A program made the translations under genes and the position numbers. The notes beneath the pieces are model-generated. The model saw nothing but the letters and a program-made list of their open reading frames with translations. It made no database searches and was not told the origin of the DNA. 48,359 nt of DNA from a bacterium (GTDB lineage: Archaea > Nanobdellota > Nanobdellia > SCGC-AAA011-G17 > GW2011-AR17): NCBI GenBank assembly GCA_030697685.1, contig JAUYPF010000038.1:1-48359 (forward strand), read 5' to 3'. Shown piece after piece: positions 358 to 46,939 of this stretch. Numbering within the stretch: the stretch's first letter is position 1; the number at the start of each line of letters is the position of its first letter.

Positions 358-444
358 TAATAAAACTACAAATCTCTAGCTATTTTTAGAAGTACATAAA
401 GTACAAGGATTAGGCTTAAATAGTACTACTCATTAGAGGTTATT

Positions 445-1167
445 ATGATAGACACAGAAAAGACTTTAGAGGAACTTTTAGAACAGAGAGTTATTACAGG
501 ATATAATGTTTTTGATAGACCATTAGAAAGACAAAATTACGCCTTTATTCTTTCTAATTTACATAATACAGAAGGCTATTTAGAAGATGTAAAAAAAGAT
601 CTCAGCCTCTTAACAAGATCAAATAGGCAAATAAAATACTCTCTTAGGAATAGGGATACGACTTTTATTTGGAGACCTAGTTATAAAATTAGAGATGATC
701 ATGGTAGGCTTTATGAGAATTTACTCATTAGAAAAGGAAAAGAATATTTGGATTTAGAGAAGATTTTTGGTAATACCTTGATGGATTCTGATCTTACAGA
801 GCAAGACCTTAAAAACCTCATTGCTGAAGCAAAAGGATATGAAATTGTTGTAGATTGCAAAAATAGAGAGGAAATATGTGCTCTTGCAAATCTCTTTAGA
901 AGAAAAAGTATTGCTGGAGGAGAAGTAGTTTGGAAAGATGCTTATGATGTGCCTTTGATACTATTAGAAGGAATTAGGAAAAGTTTTCCTGGATTTGAAA
1001 AGATCCGCTTTTTTAAGGCCCATTTTGGAGAACAGGAAATAAGTTTTATTACACCCTTATCCTTTGAGAAATCTGCTTGGATAAAAGGAAAAATATTCAA
1101 AGAGAGGATAAGATATGCAAATAAAGTCTTTATACAGGATATGTTACAAGACATTGAAAATACGTAA
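445..1167 (+). CDS. Hypothetical protein (240 aa), orphan
   Basis: Complete ORF with ATG; no recognisable family. Confidence 0.65.
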   Translation: MIDTEKTLEELLEQRVITGYNVFDRPLERQNYAFILSNLHNTEGYLEDVKKDLSLLTRSNRQIKYSLRNRDTTFIWRPSYKIRDDHGRLYENLLIRKGKEYLDLEKIFGNTLMDSDLTEQDLKNLIAEAKGYEIVVDCKNREEICALANLFRRKSIAGGEVVWKDAYDVPLILLEGIRKSFPGFEKIRFFKAHFGEQEISFITPLSFEKSAWIKGKIFKERIRYANKVFIQDMLQDIENT

Positions 1168-27689: not shown

Positions 27690-28940
27690 ATGAATATGCC
27701 TGGGTTCAAGCGAAGTTTAGATTATAGAAAATATGTTTATGATCTGTATCTTCATTTAAAAGATGATCCTTCTCTTTTAGAGTCTTCTCCACCCCCTTTG
27801 CAAAGAGAACTTTACTTGCTTCAGGATATTACTAAAAATGATCTCTCTTTAAGTGACTTAGAAAAAAAATATTTATTGAAAAGAGAAGTTATTTCTAGCT
27901 GGGCTAGATATCTTCAATCGAAAGGTATTTCTTTTGAGATGCCTTTTGTAAGAAAACATTATCTTTCTGCTGATCTTGAACAAGAAGCACTTGCATATCT
28001 TCAAGATCCAACAATCAGTGTTAAAGAAATTGCAGACACTCTTTCTTGTTCTTATACAACTCTCCATAGGCTTTATCATGCCCATGCAGATATGCTGCCT
28101 GAAAGAAAATCAAGAAGCTTTTCTTCTTCTCCTCCTGAAATTAAGGGAAAAAAAAACAATTTACGTGATGAGGCTATCCTTGAGGATGCAGAAACTTCTC
28201 GTTTTACTCTTAATGAAATGGGACAGAAAGATGGAAGAAATCTTAGTAAGCAAAGAGTAAGCCAGATTCTTCAAAGATATTACTTTGAGGATTATAGAAA
28301 AAGAAGAAGTACGTATAAAAGAGCTTTGAATATGGAATATAAGAATCTTCTTGATGTTCTTCAACAACATTATTTTGATAGGCTCATTGAAGAGAATGGT
28401 TTGAATCATGCTCTTGCATGGAGGTGCAAAGAAGTGTATGGTTGGGGTAAAAAATATTCTTTGGAGACTTTGGAAAAGCTTATTGCTGCGCGACGAGCTG
28501 GAGAGGGATATTATCGCTGTGTCAAACTTGGTGGTATAGCAGAAACTCAGAAGGAGAGTATGAAAAATGTCTCTCCCGTAGCTAGGATTTTGGATAGAGC
28601 CCTTTGTGATATTGTTTTAGATATTCATCAAAGAAATTTTGCTGAGGGAAGAAGTCTTAGTTCTGAAGAGGAAGAAAGGCTTAAAAAAATGTGGAATACA
28701 GGGGTATCTCCTACTGAGATTCAAGAAACTCTAGGATTAGTAAGCCCTGCTTCATATTATGCTCGAAAGTTTGGCTTGGGAAAAAGGCATTCTTCTATTA
28801 ATTATTCTCTTTTAGATACATTAATCTCTGAGGGGAAAAAATCTAAGGAAATGGCTGAGTTTGGTTTTTCTGGGCGTACTATTCAACGAAGAAAAAGAAA
28901 ACTCCGTTTGACAAAGGAGAAAAATGGATCCTGCACATAA
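27690..28940 (+). CDS. Multi-HTH DNA-binding protein, tandem paralogue A
   Basis: Successive HTH-like segments (VKEIADTLSCSYTTLHRLYHAH; SKQRVSQILQRYY; SPTEIQETLGLVSPASYYARKFGLGKR; SKEMAEFGFSGRTIQRRKRKL); TATA-like TTTATAAATA upstream. Confidence 0.7.
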   Translation: MNMPGFKRSLDYRKYVYDLYLHLKDDPSLLESSPPPLQRELYLLQDITKNDLSLSDLEKKYLLKREVISSWARYLQSKGISFEMPFVRKHYLSADLEQEALAYLQDPTISVKEIADTLSCSYTTLHRLYHAHADMLPERKSRSFSSSPPEIKGKKNNLRDEAILEDAETSRFTLNEMGQKDGRNLSKQRVSQILQRYYFEDYRKRRSTYKRALNMEYKNLLDVLQQHYFDRLIEENGLNHALAWRCKEVYGWGKKYSLETLEKLIAARRAGEGYYRCVKLGGIAETQKESMKNVSPVARILDRALCDIVLDIHQRNFAEGRSLSSEEEERLKKMWNTGVSPTEIQETLGLVSPASYYARKFGLGKRHSSINYSLLDTLISEGKKSKEMAEFGFSGRTIQRRKRKLRLTKEKNGSCT

Positions 28941-29733
28941 ATATACTCATAGGAATAGAAAAATTCTTGAAGATGCTCTTCAGGGTGCCACTTTTTTACA
29001 TATTGCCAATACAAATAATCTTACCCCTGAAAGAATACGCCAAATTGTAGGAAAATATAGTGGTTTTACTGGAAGAGATTTACAAACTGCGAGAAAAGAG
29101 TATGATAAAGCTCTTCATCAGAATTATAAGAATCTTCTTGATGTTCTTCAACAACATTATTTTGATAAGCTCATTGAAGAGAATGGTTTAGATCATGCTC
29201 TTGCGTGGAGGTGCAAAGAAGTGTATGGTTGGGGTAAAAAATATTCTTTGGAGACTTTGGAAAAGCTTATTGCTGCGCGACGAGCTGGAGAAGGATATTA
29301 TCGTTGTGTTAAACTTGCTGGCATAGCAGAGACTCTGAAAGAGACAAGGATTAGAACTCCTCACGCAGCTGGGATTTTGAAAATGGCACTTTGCGATGTT
29401 GTTTTAGATATTCATCATAAAAATTTTGCTGAGGGAAAAAGCCTTAGTTATGAAGAAGAAGAAAGGCTTAAAAAAATGTGGAATGCAGGGGTATCTCCTA
29501 CTGAGATTCAAGAAACTCTAGGATTAGTAAGCCCTGCTTCATATTATGCTCGAAAGTTTGGCTTGGGAAAAAGAAAAGCTACAACTGCTTCGGAAATTCT
29601 TGTTGACCATTCTTATTTGGATAGACTTATTTCTGAAGGAAACACCTATTCAGAAATGAAGAGTTTAGGTTTTTCTGAGTATACTATTCGAAGAAGAAAA
29701 AAGGCACTTGGTGTTACAAGGTTGACTTCTTAA
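28924..29733 (+). CDS. Multi-HTH DNA-binding protein, tandem paralogue B
   Basis: Near-identical DNA and protein blocks with paralogue A (NLLDVLQQHYFD.LIEENGL.HALAWRCKEVYGWGKKYSLETLEKLIAARRAGEGYYRCVKL). Confidence 0.72.
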   Translation: MDPAHKYTHRNRKILEDALQGATFLHIANTNNLTPERIRQIVGKYSGFTGRDLQTARKEYDKALHQNYKNLLDVLQQHYFDKLIEENGLDHALAWRCKEVYGWGKKYSLETLEKLIAARRAGEGYYRCVKLAGIAETLKETRIRTPHAAGILKMALCDVVLDIHHKNFAEGKSLSYEEEERLKKMWNAGVSPTEIQETLGLVSPASYYARKFGLGKRKATTASEILVDHSYLDRLISEGNTYSEMKSLGFSEYTIRRRKKALGVTRLTS

Positions 29734-46631: not shown

Positions 46632-46837
46632 ACTTTGAAAAGATGTTAAATAGTTTAAAAGCTTTACTCTTGAGTGGCTCACACTTTTGTATTCTGAGAT
46701 TATAGGAACTATAAACAAGGACTATGAACATTGGTTTTTTGTAGTAACAAACAGTAGGTTTACTTAACTTTTGATTGCAATGATGAAATATTCTTCATCA
46801 ATGTTTAGACTGGTTTGTAGTTTGTCTTGTTTTTGTA

Positions 46838-46895
46838 GCGTTCGTCTTTTTGTTGAGCCTCTGCCGGCGACTGAGGCCTGGAGCGAAGCGACTAC
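46838..46895. repeat. Dispersed GC-rich intergenic element, copy 3
   Basis: CGTTCGTCTTTTTGTTGAGCCTCTGCCGGCGACTGAGGCCTGGAGCGAAGCGACTAC; same core as copies 1 and 2, long outer stem. Confidence 0.85.
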
Positions 46896-46939
46896 AGAAG
46901 ATATTAAGAAAAAGTAAGATATAAAAAAATAAAAATAAT

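Follow-up and report, generated by a model that had tools for sequence, protein, structure and literature searches.

What kind of element is the short GC-rich block that recurs in the window, the 48,359-nt stretch of DNA analysed here? The window is contig C3 in its entirety, from the draft genome of an archaeon (G000; 1.066 Mb, 65 contigs), and, as a preliminary description had reported, it contains three such blocks, at approximately 301-362, 1520-1581 and 46835-46896 (copies c1, c2 and c3), all on the + strand and all assigned to one subfamily, A, by a sequence model (66.7, 58.1 and 71.4 bits, respectively). The core that this description had called almost invariant, GCCTCTGCCGGYGACTRAGGC, is present without mismatches in all three copies, at 323-343, 1542-1562 and 46857-46877 of the + strand, whereas it was absent from 100 dinucleotide shuffles of the window (0 expected versus 3 observed). 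The contrast with the AT-rich surroundings is equally real: the copies have a GC content of 51-63% over 43 nt and the window one of 33.2%, although in rank among windows c3 lies in the top 0.03% and c2 only in the top 1.4%. The variant GGTGACTAA is common to c1 and c2 alone. According to mechanical ORF calls the three copies are intergenic, as had been claimed, with c3 placed between the SepF and ZPR1-like genes. A thermosome-like gene is also encoded on the contig, as are two segments at 28338-28896 and 29125-29701 that are 85% identical and represent a local gene duplication.

The search of the whole genome identified 11 close copies with at most 3 mismatches, six on the forward and five on the reverse strand, so that the single orientation previously described holds inside the window and not genome-wide. 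A sequence-only model raised the collection to 13 copies, down to E = 4e-4, by adding two divergent ones that constitute subfamily B, with the core CCCTGCGGCGNTTGAGCACTGGAGCGAAGCGA. The copies are intergenic throughout and do not preserve a reading frame, which rules out a coding remnant, in agreement with the preliminary description. They occur in every kind of gene context. On mechanical ORF calls, copies c1, C59a and C5 lie behind genes in sense, c3, C34a, C34b and C39 behind genes in antisense, c2, C59b and C57 between convergent genes and C33 and C29 between divergent genes, the context of the C18 copy not being assignable on these calls. No preference of orientation relative to genes was found among them, which is expected of mobile DNA rather than of an RNA signal on the sense strand. 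Beyond 60-70 bp the flanks are mostly unrelated between copies, the exceptions being c1-c2 and the C59 pair, which suggests that the unit moves by itself. A tandem coding repeat of ~69-70 bp was also seen in an HTH-like protein (L020, 1-479).

The distribution among relatives is narrow. None of 59 relatives carries a copy at 3 mismatches or fewer, but the sequence model detects variants in the genus: G002 has subfamily B, G003 a third variant, and G004 and G001 weaker ones, with none in G005 or G006. Each carrier species thus has its own variant of the repeat, and the further copies whose search had been proposed at the outset exist both in G000 and in its relatives. Beyond the genus, the single match among 53 genomes lies in coding sequence and is a chance one, and nothing resembling the repeat was found in phage and plasmid collections. 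A 1.5-kb contig with the label Nitrosopumilaceae (L012) carries one further copy of subfamily A; because the gene beside this copy is a paralogue of genes adjoining copies in G000, the contig was probably misbinned from a close relative.

The comparison of orthologous sites points to mobility. The spacer between the ZPR1 and SepF genes measures 2 bp in G005, 16 bp in G006 and ~240 bp in G000, where it holds c3; the stretch 46670-46908 of the window has no counterpart in the two former genomes. The same site aligns with a 25-bp gap in G003, and in the sister species G002 it holds that species' own copy of type B, truncated by a contig end. At the C39 site, G005 and G006 align without gaps and G000 is ~165 bp longer. 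Absence from orthologous sites in relatives, a criterion used for MITEs, was therefore observed at c3 and C39. The extra DNA at the two empty sites amounts to 165-240 bp, more than a precise 60-bp insert would give, and neither site shows a target-site duplication or a clean junction. At c3, the additional DNA contains a second small repeat of 45 bp (46759-46803), 89% identical to G000:C35:2624-2668. Judging from the two insertion sites that are empty in sister species and from the species-specific variants, the repeat is mobile. Taken as a whole, the family probably represents undescribed archaeal, genus-restricted, non-coding and non-autonomous mobile repeats of ~60 bp, similar to REPs or MITEs, even though 13 copies is a low number for a REP and counts against this reading.

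What is conserved in the repeat is a different structure from the one initially drawn, which consisted of a GCCTC/GAGGC core stem flanked by compensating arms. The arms do pair in copies 1-3 as drawn, but the compensation did not hold: a left arm pairs with its own right arm no more strongly than with a swapped one (P = 0.05-0.32; copy 1 was the last of 12), and the fold does not stand out from column shuffles (covariation score 150/500). In the congeners the AGCC box is constant while its supposed 3′ partner becomes GCA, ACT or GCG, so that the proposed core stem is broken. RNAalifold applied to subfamily A alone gave an unsupported fold unrelated to the one described below, and a resemblance to hammerhead ribozymes (CTGA...CGAA) was rejected by eye because the core position A9 is missing. 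The alignment of all variants revealed instead an AGCC box, 4-8 nt before GGC, followed by a covarying stem of 3-5 bp and the loop GGCRAYTGA, in an arrangement, stem[GGCRAYTGA]stem′, that uses the second GCC for pairing. The stem pairs covary (GCC/GGC, TGC/GCA, CAGT/ACTG, CGCT/AGCG, CACC/GGTG). Stems GCC/GGC, GGCC/GGCC, CGCC/GGCG and TCGC/GCGA enclose the loop GGCGACTGA, stems TGC/GCA, CAGT/ACTG, CACC/GGTG and CCGT/GCGG the loop GGCGATTGA, and CGCT/AGCG the loop GGCAACTGA. In the window, on the + strand, the hairpin spans 329-343 in c1 (stem 329-331/341-343, loop GGTGACTAA at 332-340), 1548-1562 in c2 (stem 1548-1550/1560-1562, loop GGTGACTAA at 1551-1559) and 46863-46877 in c3 (stem 46863-46865/46875-46877, loop GGCGACTGA at 46866-46874). 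The C39 copy breaks this stem. Across an alignment some of whose rows came from a search that demanded pairing, 84% of the cells are paired, against 55 ± 3.8% after shuffling (reached by 0/500 shuffles), and the covariation is 0.716, against 0.221 ± 0.044 after shuffling (0/500) and at most 0.121 for slid controls. A pattern search free of any pairing requirement returned 16 matches in the genus, all pairing at 2-4 of the 4 positions; outside the genus its one match lies in coding sequence and pairs at none. This covariation supports a real hairpin. The original picture of a dispersed, structured and non-coding element therefore stands, and the covariation on which it was to be judged is strong, but it belongs to another hairpin than the one proposed.

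Most copies continue downstream of the hairpin with GAGCGAAGCGA or a variant of it, forming a second mini-hairpin (GC-GAA-GC, GCC-GAA-GGC, GC-GATA-GC or GC-GAGA-GC); in the window it occupies 347-357 in c1, as d(GC-GAA-GC), and 46881-46891 in c3, both on the + strand, and a proper one is missing in c2, C59a, C46 and some others. DNA mini-hairpins are extraordinarily stable when their loop is GNA or GNNA and sits on two or more G-C pairs (PMC4686876), a rule that the second hairpins fit; the GATA loop, for its part, is not an RNA GNRA loop. Further, G-T/G-U pairs account for only 2 of the 74 paired cells in the main hairpin alignment. The fit to the DNA rule and the scarcity of G-U pairs lean towards recognition as single-stranded DNA. 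By itself, GAGCGAAGCGA was rejected as a marker of the family, being present in numerous unrelated hairpins throughout the order, and the reversed-pattern control for it is weak, the word being nearly mirror-symmetric. It was seen in the loop of many such hairpins (L097, L098, L106, L109; G015-G017), two of which directly adjoin the 3′ ends of tRNAs, as well as in a hairpin within one sequence shared by the ends of four contigs of G004 (C17, C24, C25 and C44; L084-L087), which probably marks the border of an IS-like repeat.

The genuine covariation of the hairpin could also be explained by a structured RNA, that is, by a protein-bound element of the 3′ UTR or terminator type whose spread is incidental. 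An H-type pseudoknot could arise if the GCC paired with the GGC of the loop alongside the stem; these two segments, the first stem of such a pseudoknot, are nearly invariant across copies. Many copies are located immediately downstream of genes, in some cases overlapping the stop codon (G004, G002), and the four copies with the CAGT stem have a second hairpin, accompanied at least in the C61:1571 copy by a T-run. Against this, the copies show no preference for sense or antisense, two of those in G000 lie between divergent genes, and the folding energies of single copies are no better than those of dinucleotide shuffles on either strand. Rfam provided no relative either, without a covariance-model match at the gathering score, in line with the initial statement that no known family could be recognised. 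A function of the repeat as RNA is thus unlikely. In the favoured reading of a mobile DNA repeat, the pair of hairpins would be recognised in single-stranded DNA, for instance during replication, and an enzyme supplied in trans would copy or move the element into intergenic sites; this protein would contact the loop and the AGCC box, only the shape of the stem would matter for its conservation, and any effects on neighbouring transcripts would be secondary.

A less probable explanation comes from the genes that the repeat brackets. Between c1 and c2, an orphan gene (445-1167, + strand) without Pfam or PADLOC match is followed by a second gene (1115-1507, + strand), and their paralogues on C59, 52% and 49% identical, are bracketed by elements too. 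The c1-c2 and C59 pairs are direct repeats around the same two-gene module and have in common a promoter-like stretch, AGTACATAAAGTACAAGGATTAGGCTTAAATAGTACT, located behind c1 at 383-447 (+ strand) and shared with C59, C29 and C34. This stretch is found at 383-447 of the window, L016 649-735, L018 3060-3113 and L015 1749-1813, and lies upstream of several weakly related or unrelated orphan genes of G000. Toxin-antitoxin and ORF6N/Bro-N genes directly adjoin copies in G001 and G004, where the motif ends ORF6N and MNT-HEPN genes at their stop codons; GNAT genes likewise end in the motif at the stop codon. On C61 of G001 an MNT-HEPN pair is bracketed by motifs as direct repeats. Moreover, G004 and G001 share part of an MNT-HEPN toxin-antitoxin module with 99.6% identity over 232 bp (L173, G004:C5, 2730-3763, versus L174, G001:C6, 4813-5044), while identity at the ZPR1/SepF locus of these genomes is ~86%. 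The high identity ends at the hairpin motif, and it reflects either a recent transfer or a binning artefact. Such arrangements would fit a cassette site of the integron or dif-module type, on which a tyrosine recombinase would act to insert, excise or shuffle small gene cassettes such as toxin-antitoxin, ORF6N and Bro-N genes or orphan pairs. XerCD dif modules are small toxin-antitoxin gene modules flanked by short sites, the dif site being 28 bp long. They resemble the present case in the flanking of toxin-antitoxin genes and in the presence of an archaeal XerA, but the motif is unlike dif and is not beside XerA. Integron attC sites, including those of archaeal integrons (PMC9668308), are likewise folded sites with fixed bases and a free stem next to toxin-antitoxin or orphan cassettes. 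In contrast to them, no R″ (RYYYAAC) or R′ (GTTRRRY) boxes were found in 15 copies ± 150 bp, IntI did not exceed the cut-off in any of 20 genomes (incomplete MAGs), and the repeats are dispersed singly in mixed orientations, many of them alone between housekeeping genes, as c3 is. An attC reading of GTTGAGC was rejected for want of a partner box. It is rather improbable that AGCC, free stem, GGCRAYTGA loop and DNA mini-hairpin together serve a so far undescribed gene-cassette system of archaea as its site of recombination, one that would work in the manner of attC or dif modules under different site rules, probably with a different recombinase, and would shuffle toxin-antitoxin and orphan genes between related archaea.

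The weakest candidate is a REP proper driven by a RAYT/IS200 enzyme, in which the Y1 (HUH) transposase of the genome would move the repeat: Y1 genes exist in G000 (one, of the IS605 type), G002 (two) and G004 (one), but the motif is at none of these four loci, G003 (rated 100% complete) and G001 carry the element without any Y1 gene, and no GTAG or CGTC tag stands at the foot of the hairpin, making this explanation very improbable. G005 and G006 lack Y1 as well. No transposase with the motif at its ends was found, and the ends of the single IS605 of G000 were rejected, its flanks showing no similarity to the element. The tyrosine recombinase of G000, an archaeal XerA, was also rejected as a partner, being a housekeeping gene without an adjoining motif. 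Its presence in G000, G002, G003 and G004 and absence from G005 and G006 is suggestive; this is countered by G001, which carries the element without XerA, and by the family members G007-G010, which have XerA and no motif. In G000, G002 and G003 the XerA gene is at a contig edge (L198, L199, L201), and a sequence that breaks assemblies may lie just upstream of it.

Among known systems, the mobile repeat resembles GTAG/CGTC REPs and REPINs (PMC3733652, PMC3116915) in being a short, dispersed intergenic hairpin with species-specific families, mostly downstream of genes, and CGTC REPs also lack a known transposase. CGTC REPs are defined by a CGTC tag, a stem of 8-9 bp and a loop of 4-5 nt (PMC3733652); the present repeat differs by its stem of 3-5 bp, conserved 9-nt loop, second mini-hairpin, low copy number and archaeal host, and AGCC rather than GTAG precedes the covarying stem, GTAG appearing far upstream in only a few copies. 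Archaeal MITEs such as Sulfolobus SM1-SM4, with 25-44 copies per genome, are likewise short non-coding mobile DNA (PMC10969869). Unlike them, the repeat has no clear terminal inverted repeats, its outer arms pairing poorly, and neither a target duplication nor a parent IS was found. Only on C61 of G001 (L171, 1501-1588) do two inverted motifs stand ~88 bp apart, with more hairpins between them, an arrangement resembling a complete MITE-like unit.

REP-type hairpin repeats are known mainly from bacteria and are tied to Y1 transposases. The family described here is archaeal and follows sequence rules of its own, with a free stem, a fixed 9-nt loop and a GNA mini-hairpin, and it spreads with no recognisable partner, also in a genome that lacks Y1. 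The precise motif can now be used for finding the enzyme, and, as toxin-antitoxin cassettes of two species have it at their ends, how genes move between such small archaea becomes directly testable.
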